A stretch of DNA of 39,759 bases from Planctomycetota bacterium (GTDB lineage: Bacteria; Planctomycetota; UBA8742; UBA2392), in NCBI GenBank assembly GCA_020847415.1, contig JADLBZ010000289.1, forward strand, positions 1 to 39,759, written 5' to 3'. Every line of letters begins with the position of its first letter. Position 1 is the first letter of the stretch. This document shows, one piece after another, positions 21,382-30,947 of the stretch. Made by a program: the position numbers and the translations under genes. Under the pieces are notes generated by a model. The model saw only the letters and a list, made by a program, of their open reading frames with translations, was not told where the DNA came from and made no database searches.

Positions 21382-21441
21382 CCGATCAGTGGTTCATGGC
21401 GATTGAATTGGGGGGTGGCTTCATCCATCGCCTGCGGTCGC

Positions 21442-21507
21442 TTCCGCGACAGCGAGCGGCAGAAACCCGCAGGGCGCGTGTCGCGAGCCCCCGTCGCGGC
21501 CTGACGC
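21442..21507 (+). repeat. Family A structured repeat, copy 1
   Basis: One of three 66-bp copies that align without gaps (others at 27654-27719 and 30668-30733). It starts ttccgcgacagcgagcg and ends gcggcctgacgc. CGCGACA near the 5' end can pair with TGTCGCG in the middle, or CCGCGAC with GTCGCGG near the 3' end, with a small CCC/GGG hairpin inside. It lies 60 bp after the flhF stop, in the same orientation as flhF. Confidence 0.85.
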
Positions 21508-21554
21508 GGATGCGGGACGGAACGGACACCCATGAATCCAATGTGGATGCAACA

Positions 21555-21703
21555 CTAGCAGGCCGTTGAAGAAGTCGCCTTTGCCGCCTTCCTCAACGGA
21601 AAGCAACTGCCCGGCTCGCGGCGTGAAGCCGCTCGCCGACCGGCCCGTGCAGCCGCGCGGGCCGGGCAGGGCGCTGAAACAGACTATTTCAACGGCCTGC
21701 TAG
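21555..21703 (-). repeat. Family B structured repeat element with terminal inverted repeats, copy 1
   Basis: This 149-bp element has perfect 16-bp ends: ctagcaggccgttgaa and its inverted copy ttcaacggcctgctag. Read on the minus strand it starts at the TAG stop of the UAP1-like gene (21702-21700) and is about 85% identical by eye to copy 2 at 30465-30614. Internal dyads give two end hairpins and a central GC-rich hairpin. It lies between the convergent flhF and UAP1-like genes. No coding sequence or transposase is inside. Confidence 0.85.
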
Positions 21704-23139
21704 ATTAGGCCTGCCAGCGATTCCGGCGTGACCAGCAGCGGGGCGTTCAGGTCCCAGCGGCGTGCCGCCGGGCTGCGGGCGATGATCTCCATCAGGTCGC
21801 GGGCATTCTCTGCCACCAGTGGGTCAACTTCGATGGCGGGCGGCATTTTGCCCAGCGCAAGCTCCACGGCGCGGCCCCAGTAGGCATGGTAGGCGGCGCG
21901 GAAGCCGTCGGGGCCGAAGGGGCCGTCGGCGTTCTTGAGGGGCAGGAACTGCTCGTCGCGGGGCACTTCCAGGGCCGCCACCTTGCCGGCCAGCGGGATG
22001 GCGTCAAACACGAAGCGCTCGAACTTCCAGGCGTTGGGGCCGGCGGGCTCAACGGCGATCCCGTCTGGCGACAAGAAGGGCACCTTCTTGTGGGCCGCGT
22101 GCAGGGGCAGGTCCACGCCGGTGTCGGCCAGGCGATTCAAGAAGTCCACACTGAAGGCGTGAACGGCGATGCTGCCCGCGCGATAGAGAAGGCCACCGTC
22201 CTGGGCGCGCAAGGCGGCCTGCTCGGCGCTGAATTCGGTGTACTCGACAATGCCGGGCCTCCCGTCATCCAGGCAGAAGATGCCCACCTTCTCGGCGGGG
22301 TCGTCCTTGCGCACGACTTTCAGGGAGACTTCTGCGCCTTCGGCCAGGTGCAGGCCCAGAAACGCCGGGTCCGCGGGCGGGATCTGGGCGTTGTCCACCT
22401 GGATGTAGCTGACCACCCGCACGCCGCGGCGGCGCAGGTCAGCCAGCATGCCCTTGACGCGTAAAGCCTGCAGCACGCCCCCGTGCCCGTCCGGGCCCAG
22501 GAACAGCCGGTCCTTGTCCTCCATCACCAGCTTGCCGGCTGCATCCAGGGCCGGCATCTCGCCCTGGGCAAAGAACTGCACCTGCTCGGCGGGCAACCCG
22601 AAGTACTCGTGCGTCGCCCAGAACTCTCGCGTCTCGGCCTCGTTCTGGTTGCTGACCATCACGTACAGGGGCGGAGTACAGCCGTACTCGCGGCTGACAC
22701 GCAGCAGCTTGCGGGCAAAGACCTCAAACAGGGTGCGGCGAGTGAGGGGCAGCAGGGGATAGCAGCCTTTGGGGGCGGGAAAGCCCAGGCGAGTGCCCTG
22801 GCCGCCCGCCACCAGCAGGCAGGCGACCTGGCCGCGCCGCAGGGCCTGCTCGCCCAAGGGAGCCACGGCCCGGGCGCCATCGGCGGCAAGGTAGGGGAAC
22901 TCCCGCGAGGCCAGCTCAAAGACCGGCGCCGGCGAAAGCACGCGCGGCTTGCCCTGCCCCAGGGCGGCGATGGCCGCCTGCATCTCGGGAAGGCGTGCAA
23001 GGTCCACCAGGGCCAGCTGGCGCAGCAGGCGGCGGCGGGCGCGCTCGGAAAGCTCGGGCCACCAGGCCAGCACGTGTTCCTGACCGGCGGCGCGCAGGGC
23101 CGACTGCGTGGTGGCGAAGTCCAGGGCAGGCTCACTCAT
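21700..23139 (-). CDS. UTP-dependent sugar-1-phosphate uridylyltransferase, UAP1-like (UDPGP family)
   Basis: The 479-residue protein belongs to the eukaryote-type UDPGP family. It has the nucleotide-binding loop LVAGGQGTRLGFPAPKG, the substrate-region motifs QVDNAQIPPADPAFLG and GHGGVLQAL, and NAWKFERFVFDAIPLA, which is close to UDP-N-acetylhexosamine pyrophosphorylase (UAP1/AGX1). It should form UDP-GlcNAc or a related UDP-sugar plus pyrophosphate from UTP and sugar-1-phosphate. The sugar preference cannot be told from sequence alone. The stop codon lies inside the terminal repeat of the family B element. The gene is 102 bp downstream of the proline-rich membrane protein gene with a hairpin between, so co-transcription is uncertain. 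Confidence 0.88.
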   Translation of the reverse strand: MSEPALDFATTQSALRAAGQEHVLAWWPELSERARRRLLRQLALVDLARLPEMQAAIAALGQGKPRVLSPAPVFELASREFPYLAADGARAVAPLGEQALRRGQVACLLVAGGQGTRLGFPAPKGCYPLLPLTRRTLFEVFARKLLRVSREYGCTPPLYVMVSNQNEAETREFWATHEYFGLPAEQVQFFAQGEMPALDAAGKLVMEDKDRLFLGPDGHGGVLQALRVKGMLADLRRRGVRVVSYIQVDNAQIPPADPAFLGLHLAEGAEVSLKVVRKDDPAEKVGIFCLDDGRPGIVEYTEFSAEQAALRAQDGGLLYRAGSIAVHAFSVDFLNRLADTGVDLPLHAAHKKVPFLSPDGIAVEPAGPNAWKFERFVFDAIPLAGKVAALEVPRDEQFLPLKNADGPFGPDGFRAAYHAYWGRAVELALGKMPPAIEVDPLVAENARDLMEIIARSPAARRWDLNAPLLVTPESLAGLI

Positions 23140-23178
23140 AATGATGCATCCGCGTTAGCGGCGTTTTGCCAAAGCAAG

Positions 23179-23201
23179 GCGGGCCGGACAAGCCGGCCCG
23201 C
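23179..23201 (-). terminator. Hairpin between the membrane protein gene and the UAP1-like gene
   Basis: Perfect 9-bp stem gcgggccgg/ccggcccgc with a 5-base loop, 41 bp after the stop of the gene at 23242. On the minus strand the sequence after it is CTTGCTTTGG, a modest T-rich run. A partial terminator is plausible. Confidence 0.5.
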
Positions 23202-23241
23202 GCTGGACTGCGCACTCTTAACCCCAACTTGGCGGGGCCGG

Positions 23242-25359
23242 CTACTCGTTGGCTGGCGGCGCTTCCTCGTTAGCAGGCGGCACTTCCTCGTTGGCAGGCG
23301 GCGTCGTGTTGTCAGCAGGTGCCGCATTGCCTGCGGGTTCGCCCGTCGGCTGGGTCTTCGCGGGCGCCGGCACGATCTTCTTGTAGATGGTCTCCACGTA
23401 GTCATAGACGGGCTTGGCCTGCGGGTTCTGGCGCAACTGGTCAAGCTGCGGGATCTTGCCGGGCAGCGCCACGGGCAGCACCAGCAGGGCAACCACTACC
23501 AGCAACAGCAGCACAAACAGCAGCAGGACACGCGAGCTCTTCTTCTTGGGTTTCTCCTCACCGGCAGCAAAAGGCTCGTTGCTGACCACGGGCTTTTCCT
23601 TGGCGCTGAGCTGCTTCTTGGGCAGCTCGGGCTTGCCGGCCTTGCCGGGCAGCTTGCCCGTCTTGCCGGACTTGCCCGGCGCCGCAGCCACAGGCTCCTC
23701 GGCCGGAATCTCGACTTCCGGCTCGGGCGCCCTGGCCACCTTGCCGGTGCCCTTGCGGCCCGAGGGCGCGGGGGCTTCCTGCGGCAGCTCTTCTTGCGGC
23801 AGTTCCTCGCCCGGCTCCTCCGGAACCGGTTGCGATGGTTGCTTCTTGGACGTGGTGCCGACGCCCCGGCGCAAGGGGTGTACTTCGTCGCCGGTAGCGG
23901 GGCCGGTGGGCAGGTCGTCCATGCGCTTGCCCACGGGCAGGTCCACCTCGCCGAAGTCATCGGCACCCTGGCGTCCCCTGGGGCCGGCCTTGCCAACGGG
24001 CTCGGCGGCTGCGCGACCCATGCCCGGAGGCGGCGGGCTGAAGACCGTCGCGTCCATGTCCGGCTTCTCGTCAAAACCGGGCGATTCCATGGACGGGCTT
24101 TCGCCCCAGTCATCGCCACCCACGGGGGCCGGTTCGGGTTCCGGCTCGGGCTCTGGCGCGCGGGCGGGCGCAGCCGGGCCTCGCGTGCCGCCCAGCTCGG
24201 GCGGGCGCGGGCTGAACATGGTCTTGTCCATGGCGCCGGGCTTGGTGCGGCCGCCGGCTGTAACGCCGGGGGGCGGCGGGCTGAACATGGTCGCGTCCAC
24301 GTTCGCCGAGCTGCCCAGCGGCATGGTGCCGCGCGTGGAGGGTGCGCTGCCCGCTTCCATCTCCTCGGGCGACATCAGGTCGTTGCCGAAGTTGTCAAAG
24401 CTGTCGCCGCCCATGGGCTCAGCCGCCATGGGTTCCGGTTCCGGCATGGGTGCCGGCGCCGCGTACCCGCCGCGGGCCGGGGGCACGGGTGCCGCGTAGC
24501 CGCCACGCGCGGGCGGTTGCGGGGCGCCGTAGCCGCCCCGGGCTGGGGCGGGTGCCGTGCCGTCAAAGCCGGCGCTGATGGTGGGAAGCTCTTCTTCCTC
24601 GGGCGAGGCAATACCCTGGTACTCGGCGCCCAGGCTCTGCAGCTTGGGGCTGGAGTCCATGCGCTCCAGAGACGGTGCGCTGTCGGGCGCGCCAAAAGGC
24701 TCGGGCTCGGGCAAGGGCTCATCGCCAAAACCCATGGGCTGCGGAGCAAGGTCCTGACCGGCAAAGGGGTCCATGGGCGCAAACGGTTCGGGTGCCATTT
24801 CGCCGCCGAAGGGCTCGGGGGCCATGGCGGGCGCCATGGGCTCAGGAGCCATGTCGCCGCCGCCCCCGCCAAAGGGGTCCGCGCCGAATGGGTCGCCGCC
24901 AAAGGGGCTGCCGGCGTCCTGGCCCATGAACGACTGGGCCTCCGCTTCCTGTTTGGCGCGCGCCGCGGCCTTGGCCTTGTCGCGCTCGGCCTTGATGCGC
25001 TGTTGCATGTCCGGCGGCGGCGGCTCAAACACTGTGGCGTCCGGGTTGGCGCCGTGCATGCCGCTGAACTCGGGCACCTCTTCGCCCGCAAAGTTCTGCG
25101 CGCTCACCGGGTGGGCCGGCTGGGCAGGCTTGGTGATCTTTGCTGTCTGCTTCTTGACCACCTTGATGTTCAGGTCCCGGTCCAGTTGCCCCAGCTGGTC
25201 CGGCGTGAGCAGCTTGGATTTCTCCAGGATCATGCGCACGCTGACCTTCTTGCCCTGCGCCTCAAGCTGCCGCTGCTTGGAAAGTACCTGCTGCAGCCGC
25301 TGGGAGGTCAAGAACCCACGCGCCACAGCCTGCTGCCCATATCGAAGGTTGATTGGCAT
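23242..25359 (-). CDS. Proline-rich membrane protein with GspE-N-like domain and four D-x-T-[V/M]-F motifs
   Basis: The 705-residue protein has a small helical N-terminal domain (about 5-70) resembling the N-terminal domain of type II secretion/type IV pilus ATPases, also seen fused to planctomycete kinases. A long low-complexity Pro/Ala/Gly/Glu region follows (about 75-600). One transmembrane helix (about 606-632) and a short Pro/Glu-rich tail with repeated PPANEE units close the protein. Within the disordered part are four copies of a D-[A/K]-T-[V/M]-F-[S/E]-P motif (near 106, 353, 376 and 435) and three ARGGY repeats. The Thr in these motifs may be a Ser/Thr kinase target and FHA ligand; that is inference. 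No enzymatic motif is seen. The 5' leader (25360-25531) carries a 16-bp palindrome at 25399. Confidence 0.82.
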   Translation of the reverse strand: MPINLRYGQQAVARGFLTSQRLQQVLSKQRQLEAQGKKVSVRMILEKSKLLTPDQLGQLDRDLNIKVVKKQTAKITKPAQPAHPVSAQNFAGEEVPEFSGMHGANPDATVFEPPPPDMQQRIKAERDKAKAAARAKQEAEAQSFMGQDAGSPFGGDPFGADPFGGGGGDMAPEPMAPAMAPEPFGGEMAPEPFAPMDPFAGQDLAPQPMGFGDEPLPEPEPFGAPDSAPSLERMDSSPKLQSLGAEYQGIASPEEEELPTISAGFDGTAPAPARGGYGAPQPPARGGYAAPVPPARGGYAAPAPMPEPEPMAAEPMGGDSFDNFGNDLMSPEEMEAGSAPSTRGTMPLGSSANVDATMFSPPPPGVTAGGRTKPGAMDKTMFSPRPPELGGTRGPAAPARAPEPEPEPEPAPVGGDDWGESPSMESPGFDEKPDMDATVFSPPPPGMGRAAAEPVGKAGPRGRQGADDFGEVDLPVGKRMDDLPTGPATGDEVHPLRRGVGTTSKKQPSQPVPEEPGEELPQEELPQEAPAPSGRKGTGKVARAPEPEVEIPAEEPVAAAPGKSGKTGKLPGKAGKPELPKKQLSAKEKPVVSNEPFAAGEEKPKKKSSRVLLLFVLLLLVVVALLVLPVALPGKIPQLDQLRQNPQAKPVYDYVETIYKKIVPAPAKTQPTGEPAGNAAPADNTTPPANEEVPPANEEAPPANE

Positions 25360-25398
25360 TTCGTTGTTCCGCCCTGGGCGTCAAACCGGCACGTCCCC

Positions 25399-25414
25399 GG
25401 GGGCCATGGCCCCC
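25399..25414. repeat. Perfect 16-bp GC-rich palindrome in the leader of the membrane protein gene
   Basis: GGGGGCCATGGCCCCC lies 40 bp upstream of the start codon of the proline-rich membrane protein. In RNA it could form a hairpin only if some central bases open; as DNA it is a dyad. Function unknown. Confidence 0.6.
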
Positions 25415-25531
25415 CAGAGCAAACCCTGCCGGAAGTCAAAACTTCTGTAGGGGCCAAGATATACGACCAAGGCCCCGCCATAAACGGCCAAGTATAGATT
25501 CCGGGAACAGGCCACCAAGGTAAGGGCGGTT

Positions 25532-26389
25532 TCAGAATGCAAGCTCTGCGGTCCCCGTACCCCTGAGCCGCTTCTGTGCCACAGCCACAGCGTCTGCACT
25601 GGTGTCCCATCCCACCGCAGAGCGGGACAGCGCCCGCGCCGCCACCAGTGCGGTGCCCGATCCGCAGCAGGGGTCCAGCACCAGGTCGCCGGGGTTGGTA
25701 AAGCACTCAATCAGCCGTGACAGCAACGCCAGCGGTTTCTGGGTGGGGTAACCGCAGGCCTCGTGCTGGTTGCCCCGCAAGGCGGCAATGTCCCAGACAT
25801 CGCGCATCGCCACCCAGGTGTAGGGGCCGCGCTCGTCATGCTCGATGGTGATGTTCGAGAAACCGTAGTGGTGGGCGAGGTAGCTTTTCTCGCGCAACAC
25901 ATGAAAGACGTAGTCGGGCCCGGCAGCGTAGACCAGGATGTTGTCGTGCTTGCGCCCCAGGTGGCGGCGGCTTCCGCCCCCGGTGCGGTAGGCCCAGATG
26001 ATCTCGTTGATGAAGCCCTTCTCGCCGAAAAGCCGGTCCAGTTCCAGGCGTGCCCAGTGGGTGGCGCGGTGGTCCAGGTGCAAGGCCAGCACGCCGTGCG
26101 GCGCCAGAAGCGGTGCCAGGCTGTTCAAGAGCGCACGCAGGAACTCAAGGTACTGGGTCAGGCCGCCCGGCCAGCGGTCATCGTAAGCCGGGCCCTGCGG
26201 CTGGTTGCGCCGCACGCGCCCCGAGAAGAACGGCGGGTCCACATAGGCCAGCCGGACCGTGCCGCGCGGGAAAGCCGGCGCCAGTTGCAGGGCGTCACCG
26301 TGTGTAACCGTGCACGTGGGCGGGCTGACGCGGGCTGGCCCGCCGGCCTGTGACGCGTTACTCTCGCCCGCGGACGGGAGGTGGGTCAT
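25532..26389 (-). CDS. DNA N6-adenine/N4-cytosine methyltransferase (beta-class order)
   Basis: The 285-residue protein has the catalytic motif IV first (DPPFFSGR, Asp51) and the SAM-binding motif I near the C-terminus (DPCCGSGTALVAAR, Asp239), the beta-class arrangement. The DPPF tetrad favours N6-adenine. TQKPLALLSRLIE just before motif I is typical of this family. No restriction enzyme or specificity gene is adjacent, so it may be an orphan modification enzyme. The best start is ATG at 26389; no other start codon lies in frame before motif IV. A run of G lies about 10 bases upstream. Its start codon overlaps that of the divergent gene at 26388. Confidence 0.9.
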   Translation of the reverse strand: MTHLPSAGESNASQAGGPARVSPPTCTVTHGDALQLAPAFPRGTVRLAYVDPPFFSGRVRRNQPQGPAYDDRWPGGLTQYLEFLRALLNSLAPLLAPHGVLALHLDHRATHWARLELDRLFGEKGFINEIIWAYRTGGGSRRHLGRKHDNILVYAAGPDYVFHVLREKSYLAHHYGFSNITIEHDERGPYTWVAMRDVWDIAALRGNQHEACGYPTQKPLALLSRLIECFTNPGDLVLDPCCGSGTALVAARALSRSAVGWDTSADAVAVAQKRLRGTGTAELAF

Positions 26390-27023
26390 GCTGGTCAATC
26401 CCCCCAAAGGGCCTGCCAAGGCCGGCGTTGTCCTTGTGCCCAAACGCTTTGCCGTTGACAAGGCGGTGCTGCACAGCGCCCAGGGCATTGCAGCCACCGG
26501 CTTTGCCGTGGAAGTGGTCGAGCTTGCCCGCCAGCCGCGCACGCTGGAGAACGTGACTCTGCGCGAGATCAACGACGCCGTGCCCACCGTGCGCGACGCC
26601 GCTCGTCGCATGCGCCGCGCGCTGAACGGCAAGAAGGTGGGCGGCGTGGGCGCGTGGCTGGGCGGCACGGTGTTGCTGCTGGCCTGCGATGCCGAGTTCG
26701 ACGCCTGCGCTGTGGTGTGCCCGTTTCTGCGGTTGCAGGTGGGCCAGCCCAAGGGGTTCCGGCAGCCGCTGGAGATGGTCCGCAGCGCCCGTGCCCCCAT
26801 TCTGGCGGTGTTTGGCGAACTGGACGGCGAAGTGCCCATTGAGGACGTGCGGACACTGGAGAAGGTTCTTTCGGCCAGCCCGGAAACAGATGAGAGCTAC
26901 ACCTACCCCGGCGTAGGCCACGCCTTCTTTGACAAGGAAGAGGGCAACACCGAGTACCTGGAGCCTGCCGAACGTGACTTGTGGATGCGCATGGATCGCT
27001 TCTTTGCTCACCGCATGGGGTAG
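26388..27023 (+). CDS. Dienelactone hydrolase-like protein lacking the nucleophile
   Basis: The 211-residue alpha/beta-hydrolase resembles the dienelactone hydrolase family in length and motif order. The usual nucleophile elbow G-x-C-x-G-G reads GAWLGG, with Trp90 where the catalytic Cys (or Ser) should be. The acid (Asp146 in GELDGEVP) and base (His178 in GVGHAFF) are in place. The start is ATG with GGGAGG at 26376-26381. Catalysis by the normal route seems impossible, so it is either a pseudoenzyme, perhaps ligand-binding, or uses another chemistry. It is divergent from the methyltransferase with overlapping start codons, and followed by a hairpin. Confidence 0.85.
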   Translation: MLVNPPKGPAKAGVVLVPKRFAVDKAVLHSAQGIAATGFAVEVVELARQPRTLENVTLREINDAVPTVRDAARRMRRALNGKKVGGVGAWLGGTVLLLACDAEFDACAVVCPFLRLQVGQPKGFRQPLEMVRSARAPILAVFGELDGEVPIEDVRTLEKVLSASPETDESYTYPGVGHAFFDKEEGNTEYLEPAERDLWMRMDRFFAHRMG

Positions 27024-27030
27024 TACCAGG

Positions 27031-27061
27031 CGTGGGGCGCGAATCACCCGGACGCCCCACG
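27031..27061 (+). terminator. Hairpin after the dienelactone hydrolase-like gene
   Basis: Stem cgtggggcg/cgccccacg (9 bp, perfect) with a 13-base loop, starting 8 bp after the stop. Only a weak T-rich stretch follows (catttgcgaatcttt). Confidence 0.5.
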
Positions 27062-27096
27062 GCATTTGCGAATCTTTCCGGATTGCCACTGGCAGT

Positions 27097-27127
27097 CTGT
27101 TCGTTGAACAGTTTACATGGACTGTTC
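27097..27127. promoter_or_regulatory. Operator-like array of three CTGTTC half-sites
   Basis: CTGTTC-GTT-GAACAG (27097-27111) is a perfect dyad. Its right half-site also pairs with a third: GAACAGT (27106-27112), 8-bp spacer, ACTGTTC (27121-27127). The array lies about 60 bp before the 117-residue gene and suggests binding by a dimeric regulator. It recalls LexA-type half-sites but does not match a known SOS box spacing. Confidence 0.5.
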
Positions 27128-27184
27128 CTGCGCTGCGGCGACTTGTGGCTGCGCGCGGGCAACGACACCGGGAGACAGGCAGTA

Positions 27185-27538
27185 ATGAGCAGCCAAACGA
27201 ATATTTTCATTGACGGCGAACACGCCGCGACCCTGAAGAACCTGCAGACGGACGCGCCCTGGCACTTCGGCACCCTGTTGCCCGGCGCTGCTTTCCAGGA
27301 ATTGTTGAACTCGCTGGAGACCGCGCCCTGGAGCACGAACCAGGAGGGCGCCGTGGAACTGGTGGCAGGCCAGGACACCGTGGACCGCGTGAGTTGGGGC
27401 GCCGAGGTGGACAGTTCGGAGATGATTACCCGCCTCACGCTGGCGCGTTTCACGCCGGACGGTGATTGGGAGCTTGAGTTTACCTGCGAGCAGGACGCCG
27501 CCGAGAATCCCGGCGCCACCAAGGAAAGCGCGGCTTAG
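27185..27538 (+). CDS. Small protein of unknown function
   Basis: A 117-residue acidic protein starting MSSQTNIFIDGEHAAT, with no signal peptide, membrane helix or cysteine pair. The start has GGAGA at 27171-27175, nine bases upstream. The composition (Glu/Asp/Trp-rich, alternating hydrophobics) suggests a small soluble alpha/beta domain. It is flanked upstream by an array of inverted half-sites and downstream by a strong terminator, so it is a single-gene transcription unit. Family unknown to me. Confidence 0.75.
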   Translation: MSSQTNIFIDGEHAATLKNLQTDAPWHFGTLLPGAAFQELLNSLETAPWSTNQEGAVELVAGQDTVDRVSWGAEVDSSEMITRLTLARFTPDGDWELEFTCEQDAAENPGATKESAA

Positions 27539-27553
27539 GTTGCACACGCAAGC

Positions 27554-27590
27554 GGGCGGCGGCCTTCTGGCCGCCGCCCTCGTTCGTTTT
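27554..27590 (+). terminator. Rho-independent terminator of the small unknown gene
   Basis: Perfect 11-bp stem gggcggcggcc/ggccgccgccc with loop TTCT, then tcgttcgtttt. It begins 15 bp after the stop. Confidence 0.88.
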
Positions 27591-27653
27591 GCCGGTACCG
27601 CGCCAGTGACCATGCCTGTTGAAGTTGTGGGTCAATGCCACGCTTGCGGCCGT

Positions 27654-27719
27654 TTCCGCGACAGCGAGCGATAGAAGCCCGAAGGGCGCGTGTCGCGAGC
27701 GTCCGACGCGGCCTGGCGC
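27654..27719 (+). repeat. Family A structured repeat, copy 2
   Basis: Second 66-bp copy, ungapped against copies 1 and 3. The inner hairpin is GCCC-GAA-GGGC; the outer CCGCGAC faces GACGCGG (one change from perfect). It lies 115 bp after the small unknown gene and before the prmC 3' end. About 40 bp on either side lie imperfect inverted flanks, catgcctgttgaag (27611-27624) facing the inverse of cttcaacgatcatg (27747-27760), which could mark the ends of a larger unit. Confidence 0.82.
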
Positions 27720-27776
27720 TTCGGCGGAGCGAATCAGGCGCACGGGCTTCAACGATCATGGCCCAGCAGGGCTTGT

Positions 27777-28631
27777 TCAATGGCTGGTCCAGCGCGCCGC
27801 CAGAACGCGCTCCATGCCGCTCAGGTCGCGGTGCAGGTCAGCCTCATAGCCCAACAGGGCGGCGGTCTTTGCCAGGGCCGGGCCCTGGTCCGCGCCGAAC
27901 TCCATCAACAGCCACGCACCCGGCGCCAGCACCGCCCGTGCCTGCTGCAGCACGGTACGGCCGGCCTGCAGGCCGTGCTCGCCTGAGAACAGCGCAGTAC
28001 GGGGTTCATGGGTGCTGACCTCAGGGGGCAGGTCGGCTTCAGCCGCCGGGTCAATGTAGGGGGGGTTGCAGACCAGCAGCGCCAGCCCGGCACCCGGCCG
28101 GACCGGCGCCAGCAGGTTGCCCCGGCAGCAGCGCACGCGTGCCTGCACGCCGTGGCGCCGCGCGTTGTCGGCTGCCACCCGCACCGGCACGGGCTCCAGG
28201 TCCAGGGCCAGCACGTGCAGGGCCGGAAACTCCAGCGCCAGCGTGACCGCCAGACAGCCGGAACCGGTGCCCACGTCGGCGGCCCATCCCGCCTGCCCCG
28301 GTGGTAGCAGCCGCTTGGCCAGCTCGATGATGGTCTCGGTCTCCGGGCGCGGCACCAGCACGCCCGGGCGCACGGAGAAGGTGCGGCTGAAGAACTCGCG
28401 CTCGCCCAAGATGTAAGCCAGGGGCTCACGGCGCAGGCGCCGCCGAGCCAGTTCGTGCAGGGCTGCCGCATGGGCTGGCGCAAGGGGCTCCTGCGTCAGG
28501 GCCAGCAGGCGCCCGCGGTCCACCTCCAGCACTCGTGCCAGCAGCAGCTCGGCGGTCAGGCGTGGGCTGTCCACGCCCGCGCCGACGAAGGCAGCGCGCC
28601 AGTGTTCGATACTCTCGCGTATGGTGGCCAC
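27777..28631 (-). CDS. prmC: Peptide chain release factor N5-glutamine methyltransferase PrmC
   Basis: PrmC methylates the GGQ glutamine of release factors RF1 and RF2 using S-adenosylmethionine. The sequence shows an N-terminal helical substrate-binding domain (TIRESIEHWRAAF, then SPRLTAELLLA), the PRPETE motif, SAM-binding VGTGSGCLAVTLA and the catalytic NPPY of N-methyltransferases. GTG at 28631 gives 284 residues and a family-typical start just before TIRES. A second GTG at 28670 would add 13 residues; neither has a clear ribosome site. It follows the MarR gene on the same strand and may share its transcript. Confidence 0.93.
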   Translation of the reverse strand: MATIRESIEHWRAAFVGAGVDSPRLTAELLLARVLEVDRGRLLALTQEPLAPAHAAALHELARRRLRREPLAYILGEREFFSRTFSVRPGVLVPRPETETIIELAKRLLPPGQAGWAADVGTGSGCLAVTLALEFPALHVLALDLEPVPVRVAADNARRHGVQARVRCCRGNLLAPVRPGAGLALLVCNPPYIDPAAEADLPPEVSTHEPRTALFSGEHGLQAGRTVLQQARAVLAPGAWLLMEFGADQGPALAKTAALLGYEADLHRDLSGMERVLAARWTSH

Positions 28632-28677
28632 GGGCAGAGTGTGGCATGGGCAACCAGCCGTGGCGAGCACGGGGCGT

Positions 28678-29136
28678 TCAGCGGCTGGCCGGCTTGCGCT
28701 CGTTCATCCAGTGGAAGACGGTCTCCATGGCCTTGACCACCTGGCCTGCCTCGCGTTCGCTGGCGTGCTCCAGGGCCAAGGCCACGCGGGTGGGGCCGAT
28801 GGGCTCGACGCTTTCCAGCACCTTCAAGGCCTTGGCAGTAAGGCGCAGCTCGCGTTTGCGCTTGTCCGCGGTGCTGGGTTCACGGGTGATGAAGCCATGG
28901 GCCTGCAGCCGGTTCAGCATCTGCGTGATGGCCGGCTGAGCCTTGCCCAGCAGCTCGGTGAGGCTGGACGTGGTGACGTCACGGGAGCGCTCCAGGGCGC
29001 GCAACAGGCCGTATTGCTTGGCTGTCAGGCCGTGGTGTGCCTCCAGGTCGCGGGACCAGGCCTCGTGGGCGTGTTCGTTGGCCCAGTAGAGGCGAAGGAA
29101 CTCGCGGACGTACTCCAGTGCGGTCTTGGTGTCCAT
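28678..29136 (-). CDS. MarR family transcriptional regulator
   Basis: The 152-residue protein has the winged-helix MarR layout: an N-terminal dimerisation helix, then QYGLLRALE, a recognition segment TSSLTELLGKAQPAITQMLNRLQAHGFI and the wing TADKRKRELRLT with the conserved R-K/R-x-LT ending, then C-terminal helices. ATG at 29136 is the family-typical start; the frame extends 27 codons upstream, into what looks like promoter. It is divergent from the O-methyltransferase, and a 14-bp palindrome in the gap is a likely operator for self-control and perhaps control of that gene. The ligand is unknown. Confidence 0.9.
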   Translation of the reverse strand: MDTKTALEYVREFLRLYWANEHAHEAWSRDLEAHHGLTAKQYGLLRALERSRDVTTSSLTELLGKAQPAITQMLNRLQAHGFITREPSTADKRKRELRLTAKALKVLESVEPIGPTRVALALEHASEREAGQVVKAMETVFHWMNERKPASR

Positions 29137-29190
29137 GAGAGGCCGGCGAGCATAGCCGGCCCGGCGGGGGTCGGCACGGAAGATAACGGG

Positions 29191-29225
29191 ATTATGTAGT
29201 TGGACTCCGCCGGTCAACGTTGACC
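29191..29225 (-). promoter_or_regulatory. Putative MarR operator and marR promoter
   Basis: A perfect 14-bp palindrome GGTCAACGTTGACC (29212-29225) lies in the gap between the divergent marR and O-methyltransferase genes. On the minus strand its half TTGACC can serve as -35, with CATAAT (29196-29191) as -10 after 15 bp, so a bound dimer would block marR transcription. The promoter spacing is short, hence the limited confidence. Confidence 0.5.
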
Positions 29226-29297
29226 CAAGTGGTACGGGTTGCCTCGCGTGCCTCGTCGCGCCATGATGGGCCCTAAACCAACCCCCAGGAGGGCGTC

Positions 29298-30467
29298 ATG
29301 GCGGCCCGACGCGGCAAACCGACCGGCAAGTCCGCTCGCAAGAACGGCAAGAAGAACGTGCGCCGGAGCGCGCGCCAGCCCAAAAGTCGCAAGGCCGCCA
29401 ACATCAAGCCGCGCAAGACCGCGCGCAAGCCGCGTCGCCACTCACCTCGCCAGGGCAAGCCCCCGCAGGTGCCGCCGGCCGGCGCGCTGATGCAGATGCT
29501 GACCGGCTACTGGCTCTCCAAGGCCGTTTCCACTGCCGCCCGGCTGGGCATTGCCGACAAGCTGGCCAAAGGCCCCCTGTACTACGTGGACCTGGCCGCG
29601 GCGGTCGGTGCCCACACCAAGACCCTGCACCGGTTGATGCGCGCGCTTGCTTCGGTGGGGGTGTTTGCCGAGCCCGCGCCCGGCCGCTTTGCCCTGACGC
29701 CCCTGTCGCAACTGTTGCGCGGCGATGTGCCCGGCAGCCTGCGCGACATGGCAGTCATGATCACCACCCCCAGCCACTGGTTGCCTTGGGGACGCCTGGA
29801 CGAATCCGTGGTCAAGGGCATCTCGGTGGCCGAGGATGTCTTTGGCAAGCCGCTCTGGGATTACTACCGCGAGAACCCCGAAGAAGGCGCCTGGTTCAAC
29901 GGCGCCATGAGTGCCTTCACCGCGATGACCGGCGAAGCGGTGGCAGCCGCCTATGACCTGTCCGGTTGCGAGCACATCGTGGATGTGGGCGGCGGCCACG
30001 GCTTGCTGCTGGCCACGCTTTTGCGGGCGGCGCCGGCTTCGCGCGGTGTGCTGTTCGACCTGCCCCAGACCGTGGCAGGCGCCGGGGCTTTCTTTGAGGA
30101 GGTCAGCAGCCGCGTCGATGTGGTGGGCGGCGATTTCTTCAAGGCTGTGCCCGCGGGCGGCGACTGCTACGTGCTGAAGCACATTTTGCACGACTGGGCC
30201 GACGCGCAGTGCGCGCAGATTTTGGCCAACCTCCGGCGCGCCATGGCGCCGGAGGGCCGCGTGCTGGTCATTGAGACGCTGGTGCCCGAGACGCCCGGCC
30301 CGCACCACGCCCACCTGATGGACCTGAACATGCTGGCCTTGACCCCGGGCGGCTGCGAGCGCACCGAGCGCGAATTCGCGGGCCTGTTTGCGCGTGCCGG
30401 CCTGCGCCTGCGCGAAGTGGTGCCCACCCAGAGCCCCGTCAACGTGATCGTCGCCGTGCCGGAATAG
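29298..30467 (+). CDS. O-methyltransferase with Lys/Arg-rich N-terminal extension
   Basis: The 389-residue protein is a SAM-dependent methyltransferase of the hydroxyneurosporene/acetylserotonin type. After a tail, residues about 62-170 form the winged-helix dimerisation domain and about 190-385 the Rossmann domain. Seen: SAM motif VDVGGGHG at 228-235 and HILHDWAD with likely catalytic His298. The first 55 residues are extremely basic (Lys/Arg/Ala/Ser/Pro), like a histone H1 or nucleoid-protein tail, which is unusual for this family. The start is firm: AGGAGGG lies just upstream of the ATG. The stop TAG is the first triplet of a family B repeat. Methyl acceptor unknown. Confidence 0.9.
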   Translation: MAARRGKPTGKSARKNGKKNVRRSARQPKSRKAANIKPRKTARKPRRHSPRQGKPPQVPPAGALMQMLTGYWLSKAVSTAARLGIADKLAKGPLYYVDLAAAVGAHTKTLHRLMRALASVGVFAEPAPGRFALTPLSQLLRGDVPGSLRDMAVMITTPSHWLPWGRLDESVVKGISVAEDVFGKPLWDYYRENPEEGAWFNGAMSAFTAMTGEAVAAAYDLSGCEHIVDVGGGHGLLLATLLRAAPASRGVLFDLPQTVAGAGAFFEEVSSRVDVVGGDFFKAVPAGGDCYVLKHILHDWADAQCAQILANLRRAMAPEGRVLVIETLVPETPGPHHAHLMDLNMLALTPGGCERTEREFAGLFARAGLRLREVVPTQSPVNVIVAVPE

Positions 30468-30614
30468 CAGGGCGTTGAGAAAGTCCTTCTCAACGCCCTG
30501 CCCGTCCCGCGCGACCGCACGGGCCGGCCGGCGAGCGGCTTCACGCCGCGAGTCGGGCAGTTGCTTTCTGTTGAGGAAGAGGCGCCCAAGGCGACTTCTT
30601 CAACGGCCTGCATA
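30465..30614 (+). repeat. Family B structured repeat element, copy 2
   Basis: This 150-bp element starts exactly at the TAG stop of the O-methyltransferase gene (tagcagggcgttgaga) and ends at ttcaacggcctgcatag. It is about 85% identical by eye to copy 1 when copy 1 is read on the minus strand. The 5' hairpin gcagggcgttgagaa/ttctcaacgccctgc is a perfect 15 bp with loop agtcc; the 3' arm can form a hairpin of its own or pair back to the 5' end. A GCGGC-TTCAC-GCCGC hairpin lies in the middle. There is no reading frame of note. Confidence 0.88.
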
Positions 30615-30667
30615 GCGGCCCATCCGGGATGAACGCACGGGCAGTTTCGTCCAACGATTACGGTCTT

Positions 30668-30733
30668 TTCCGCGACAGCCAGCGGCAGAAGCCCAGAGGG
30701 CTCGTGTCGCGAGCGCCCGTCGCGGCCTGACGC
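30668..30733 (+). repeat. Family A structured repeat, copy 3
   Basis: Third 66-bp copy, 54 bp after family B copy 2. The inner hairpin is GCCC-AGA-GGGC and the outer CCGCGAC/GTCGCGG is perfect. The rest of the gap to 30948 (30734-30947) has no gene or clear promoter that I can support. Confidence 0.85.
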
Positions 30734-30947
30734 AGCGGCGGGCGCGGCACACACCCCCGGTTTCACCACGAACGCGGCACAAGGGCTACGCGCGTTACCT
30801 GCCTGTGGCTGTGTCGTGTGGAAAAACCTGCGGCGCAGGCAAGGTTGCTGCGTAAGGTGTACAGGCCCCGGTTCCGGCAGAAGCACGCCATTGGCTGCGT
30901 TGCAGGTCTCGCCGTGAACCCGGGCTGCTTTGCCGCCGGAGGATGCC

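Follow-up and report, generated by a model that had tools for sequence, protein, structure and literature searches.

A YTAG-flanked repeat at gene ends in a Planctomycetota genome: a probable non-autonomous MITE with IS5/IS1182-like ends

Within a 39,759-nucleotide stretch of Planctomycetota DNA (the window), two copies of a structured repeat each begin at the TAG stop codon of a neighboring gene, and the locus raises the question of whether the repeat is anchored to the stop codon as such or to something that stop codons happen to contain. The initial annotation offered three candidates: a MITE-like unit targeting TAG or CTAG, a terminator or protector of transcript 3' ends, and an RNA element. 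Overall, we believe the repeat to be a non-autonomous MITE of about 141 bp that carries the ends, and uses the target, of the IS5/IS1182-like group, a reading to which we assign a probability of roughly 0.87. The first candidate is the one that fits, as the terminal repeat and the 4-bp YTAG duplications match those of IS5/IS1182-type insertion sequences.

The window copies and their family

Copy 1 lies on the minus strand, where sequence and family alignment place the element proper (CAGG...CCTG) at 21559–21699. The CTAG at its 5' end (21700–21703), where the first hairpin, H1, is located, includes the TAG stop of a UDPGP/UAP1-like gene (PF01704; 21700–23139, minus strand), and a second CTAG at the far end (21555–21558) is the other half of the target-site duplication. 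Copy 2, delimited in the same way, occupies 30468–30610 on the plus strand. Its H1 end abuts an ATAG (30464–30467) containing the TAG stop of an O-methyltransferase gene (PF00891; 29298–30467, plus strand), and the matching ATAG at the far end (30612–30615) follows one additional C at 30611. The two copies are indeed related (88% identity; a repeat search pairs a 115-nt arm at 89% and a 32-nt arm at 94%), and the TAG at each is the stop codon of the gene named. The perfect terminal repeats originally described for copy 1 need trimming: the inverted repeat stands (CTAGCAGGCCGTTGAA...TTCAACGGCCTGCTAG), and the outermost four bases on each side, CTAG, belong to the target-site duplication, not to the element.

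Defined in this way, the element proper is a CAGGSYGTTGAARAAGTC... inverted repeat of about 141 bp, with terminal repeats CAGGSYGTTGAARAAGTC at both ends and NTAG, mostly CTAG, on each side. The window's own genome is a Planctomycetota MAG (G000; 3.58 Mb in 327 contigs, 85% complete, 67% GC), in which blastn with copy 2 as query finds 40 places above 160 bits, and the 15-base end pattern TAGCAGGNYGTTGAA, allowing one mismatch at most, matches 132 times against a single match for a reversed-pattern control. The roughly 725 kb of this genome that were sampled hold 58 full or near-full copies and 9 solo hairpins, and the size of the family is well beyond chance. Elsewhere the spread is patchy: there are 25 matches in the related genome G008 and none in the congener G004, and the copies in two further relatives (G005 and G009) are 72–75% identical. 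Six places in GTDB 220 match the element core exactly, all of them in Planctomycetota MAGs (SJ383, PLA1, H3_PLA7, Bin_91R), and a DNA search of a plasmid collection with the element gave no match.

The flanks carry a constant 4-bp duplication. In a hand tally of 27 complete copies, the two flanking 4-mers are identical in 14 (11 CTAG, 2 ATAG including copy 2 of the window, and 1 CTGG) and one base apart in a further 11, typically as CTAG/CCAG, CTAG/CTGG or CTAG/CTAA. Since CTAG accounts for most of the duplications, only a few cases are informative, namely the two ATAG and the CTGG, and the many imperfect duplications count against the MITE reading. Spread by recombination or gene conversion, as for a common dispersed repeat and without transposition, would accommodate the range of identity among copies (about 72 to 99% to the query consensus) and perhaps also the short forms, notably solo H1 hairpins about 34 bp long with CTAG/CTGG flanks; a deletion between the 3' arm of H1 and the right end could yield them, and one (C122) does resemble a hybrid of just those two parts. 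However, the ends are exact, the flanks are 4 bp and the surroundings are unrelated at every copy, and intact insertion sequences described below have the same ends. We give this explanation almost no credence.

Target preference and stop codons

Stop codon use was assessed in the same 725 kb, which come from contigs mostly chosen for carrying copies and in which a simple codon-usage caller called 591 genes. One end of the element falls exactly at the stop of a called gene in 34 of the 58 full or near-full copies and in 6 of the 9 solo hairpins. The association seen in the window is thus genome-wide, and placement relative to stop codons is not random. Among TAG stops, the element occupies 27 of 70 that read CTAG and 8 of 25 that read TTAG, as against 4 of 34 ATAG and 3 of 150 GTAG; the last is the commonest TAG stop type, yet it is almost never used. 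For YTAG versus RTAG stops the odds ratio is 14.8 (p = 1e-12), and the other stop codons are occupied at 0 of 88 TAA and 1 of 190 TGA. Enrichment of the sample for copies raises absolute occupancy above the genome average, but does not bear in that way on the contrast between tetramers. Because the base before the stop lies outside the stop codon and yet governs occupancy, the target is the tetramer YTAG and not the stop codon.

CTAG occurs 209 times against a Markov expectation of 633, threefold below, and the CTAG sites that lack the element comprise 42 at stops, 61 in intergenic sequence and 37 within genes. Set against the non-coding CTAG background, the use of stops by the element (34/58 versus 42/103) is enriched only twofold (p = 0.034), though this slight excess is a point against a target preference alone. 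The anchoring to stop codons is a by-product of a CTAG target and not a property of stop codons themselves.

Relatives of the host genes indicate that the TAG was there before the element and was not brought by it. These relatives belong to different species or genera, and the sites they offer are unoccupied orthologous positions, not empty sites in the strict sense. For example, a copy in G008 follows the GAC-TAG of a VWA-type gene whose ortholog in G004, at the same codon and with no element, reads GAC-TAA; a second G008 copy lies after a TTAG stop, where the orthologs in G004 and G000 have GTAG at the aligned position and no element. Ten orthologs of the window's methyltransferase gene lack the element, 8 of the 10 being co-terminal to within about one codon and one of them having ATAG, and the UAP1-like orthologs of 11 relatives stop, where the end is readable, at most about 10 codons away from that of the window gene.

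These observations bear directly on a second explanation, in which the repeat is a REP- or BIME-like palindrome moved by a RAYT (a Y1 tyrosine transposase) and the TAG is its own conserved tetranucleotide tag. Hairpins beside a TAG, placement after genes and a solo hairpin form are all features of this kind, Y1_Tnp domains occur in the bacterial family, and the termini of GTAG-REPs have been reported often to give flanking ORFs their TAG stop (Di Nocera et al. 2013, PMC3733652). The initial annotation's statement that no described element is anchored in this manner does not survive that precedent. GTAG-REPs share with the window element a palindromic form, a position after genes and a TAG that is often the stop codon of the neighboring ORF. 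However, their GTAG tag stands at one end and is part of the repeat, whereas in the window element the TAG is target sequence, duplicated so that each end has one. Here the flank is YTAG rather than GTAG, it is present at both ends, it pre-exists in relatives, and in some copies both flanks change in step (ATAG/ATAG, CTGG/CTGG). No element end lies within the seven Y1_Tnp loci checked, G004 has 16 Y1_Tnp matches and zero elements, and G000 has just 4 weak matches. The tetramer preference and the pre-existing TAG largely refute movement by a RAYT, which we consider very unlikely.

The four-hairpin interior

The interior of the element is highly structured. In copy 2, on the plus strand, fold and covariation delimit four hairpins: H1 (30467–30501), which has the left terminal repeat as its 5' arm; H2 (30502–30527), which alignment also shows to be almost invariant between genera; H3 (30529–30556), variable in sequence with compensatory changes; and H4 (30568–30606), whose 3' arm is a portion of the right terminal repeat. 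Predicted folds of both window copies beat dinucleotide shuffles by a wide margin (z about -7). Across 37 aligned copies from four lineages, 96.6% of cells are paired in this local fold, and 16 of its 46 pairs show changes on both sides, a count reached in none of 500 shuffles and in no slid version. Of the two alternative folds proposed at the outset, the local one is upheld by this covariation, while long-range pairing of the 5' and 3' termini shows covariation no greater than shuffles. In further genomes of the family, H2 (CCGGCCCGCGCGRCYGCACGGGCCGG) recurs with other H1, H3 and H4 partners.

Such features might be expected of a functional 3'-end RNA element, a terminator or exonuclease block held at the stop codon by selection. 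In its favor are the location of copies after stops, the four GC-rich hairpins with their compensatory changes, the near-invariance of H2 and a mild excess of convergent gene contexts (p = 0.054). At the same time, the stopped gene is faced by either end, H1 in 20 cases and the far end in 14, with no significant bias (p = 0.39), and this weakens the RNA-element and terminator candidates alike. No run of T follows any hairpin at the element's end in the sequences of all copies. In addition, occupancy tracks the base before the stop rather than the gene, the same genes are without the element in all relatives checked, and a search of Rfam 15 returned no family above the gathering score. We regard a role of this kind as improbable.

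Compensatory change does not by itself prove RNA function, because templated mutation, or ends that act as double transposase sites, can also keep palindromes. Against the main reading, covariation this strong and an H2 so nearly invariant exceed what a MITE moved by a DDE transposase should need. It is conceivable, if doubtful, that the interior, and H2 above all, is selected for a job of its own, either binding of a host factor or of the transposase or provision of a benign transcript 3' end by which insertions at stop codons become tolerable, which would make the element a stop-codon-compatible 3'-UTR module.

Matching insertion sequences and a route to gene ends

Matches to the ends of the element lie in insertion sequences of other genomes. 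Of 392 Planctomycetota genomes, 12 contain the exact end CTAGCAGGNYGTTGAARAAG, against none for the control, and in several of the 12 it bounds repeats of about 160 bp whose interiors are unrelated to that of the window element. In one Planctomycetota genome (G266), a DUF772 transposase gene begins 76 bp past CTAG-CAGGGTGTTGAAAAA; its product is nearest in NCBIfam to IS1182 (190 bits, short of the cut-off of 270) and IS5, and the loci of related proteins, on plasmids and elsewhere in the Planctomycetota, carry CAG[GC]CCGTTGAMGAAGTCG at their boundaries. The ends of two such loci, L224 and L226, came first from an unbiased inverted-repeat search and those of the others from a later consensus scan. 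Identical 4-bp flanks surround L204 (CTAG/CTAG), L227 (TTAG/TTAG), L226 (GTAG/GTAG) and L228 (TTTG/TTTG), duplications which confirm that these ends are real insertion-sequence ends; at L202 (CTAG/TTAG) and L224 (CTAA/CTAG) the two flanks do not match perfectly. At its right end, the window element agrees with L224 at 19 of 21 positions and with L228 and L208 at 18 of 21, where 20,000 shuffles gave a maximum of 13. Thus the DUF772 IS5/IS1182-like elements (L224 on Sphingobium pCHQ1, L226, L227, L228, L202, L204 and L208) share with the window element a terminal repeat (up to 19/21) and a YTAG-like 4-bp duplication, and differ from it in coding for a transposase of about 450–470 amino acids, whereas the window element codes for nothing and has a structured interior.

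We infer that a transposase of this group moved the element. Domain matches and tblastn found no cognate DUF772 transposase in G000 (85% complete), G008, G005 or G009, which counts against the inference; a resident partner is not treated as a required feature of a MITE, given that the MAG is 85% complete and that partners can be lost. Other candidate partners were set aside. IS5-type elements of G008 end in AGAGGCTGTTTCAAAACC beside TTA and do not match; an apparent autonomous copy in G000 (C11:3523-5507) encloses a gene for a metallo-beta-lactamase/rhodanese protein and is read as two separate insertions; and loci in other Planctomycetota with longer spacing between the terminal repeats contain ordinary genes and no transposase.

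A route to gene ends can be proposed. An IS5/IS1182-like DDE transposase, acting in trans, would recognize the end CAGSCYGTTGAARAAGTC and insert the element into YTAG, mostly CTAG, duplicating those 4 bp. In this genome of 67% GC, CTAG is rare within genes, and a large part of the CTAG sites that remain are C-TAG gene ends. Consider an insertion at such an end: one copy of the duplication would preserve the stop, and the protein would stay intact, so that copies could survive and accumulate beside stop codons, while purifying selection presumably removed insertions within genes. The four-hairpin interior may have been kept by ends that act as palindromic double sites, or may have been tolerated as a transcribed 3' tail.

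Several parts of this picture are already described, among them MITEs that duplicate CTAG, an IS5 that prefers CTAG and repeats that provide TAG stops. MITEPsy1 of Pseudomonas syringae pv. phaseolicola (PMC3189936) is a gene-less MITE of about 100 bp that duplicates CTAG or YTAA and whose ends relate it to a full insertion sequence, ISPsy2. Both it and the window element are short, gene-less and CTAG-duplicating; their terminal repeats differ, and MITEPsy1 is not known to have a four-hairpin interior or stop-codon statistics reported for it. IS5 of E. coli, a DDE element, duplicates Py-T-A-Pu, most commonly CTAG (PMC5493358); it is likened to the window element by this target, being itself autonomous and about ten times longer. 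Literature searches on CTAG MITEs in Planctomycetes and on IS1182 with CTAG found nothing relevant.

What the present analysis adds is a quantitative demonstration that a simple YTAG preference, in a GC-rich genome poor in CTAG, gives rise to an apparent link with stop codons. It is at once a warning that repeats at gene ends should not be read as functional from their place alone, and an indication that YTAG targeting is a route by which MITEs build up without breaking genes. In this context, the many different repeats of about 160 bp that share an end in scattered Planctomycetota take on a common aspect, and one transposase group may therefore explain a broad class of the non-coding repeats of this phylum.

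A second repeat family beside the element

Downstream of both window copies of the element, at a distance of about 40 bp or less, lies a repeat of about 104 bp that we call D3, present in the window at 21413-21516, 27625-27728 and 30639-30742, its copies 77-82% identical. In other contigs (fetched loci L010, L015 and L017), an end related to D3, TGTTGCATCCACATTGAA..., begins immediately past the element's CTAG, which suggests that D3 is a second MITE-like family, using or abutting the same sites.

Possible rearranged and reduced forms

The core formed by the second and third hairpins, H2-H3, was also found with differing flanking hairpins (L047, L061, L068, L094), as if the interior of the element were a module exchanging its ends. 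Solo copies of the 5' hairpin, H1, of about 34 bp and with CTAG or CTGG on either side (L158-L162, L171, L176), are possibly minimal two-arm MITEs, or else deletion products of the full element.

Stop codons and CTAG in the host genome

In the 725 kb sampled from the element's own 67% GC genome, mostly contigs chosen for carrying copies, TAG is the most frequent stop (279 of 557 called stops) and GTAG its most frequent context (n=150), a predominance that is unusual at this GC content if the simple gene caller is correct. CTAG is depleted threefold there relative to Markov expectation; flanks of the element that, on the side away from the stop, have decayed to CCAG or CTGG would be consistent with T-to-C pressure on CTAG.

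Shared and unrelated ends

An IS5-type element in four near-identical copies (L300, L301, L303, L305) in G008, an element-carrying genome from a related genus, was considered and rejected as the partner of the ~141-bp repeat, to which it is unrelated: its ends are AGAGGCTGTTTCAAAACC, adjoining TTA. The element's own ends, CTAGCAGGCCGTTGAAAAAG, also bound repeats of about 150-190 bp with unrelated interiors in scattered Planctomycetota (L127, L130, L133, L139, L140, L147-L149, L152, L153), which are likely MITE families of the transposase group proposed for the element.
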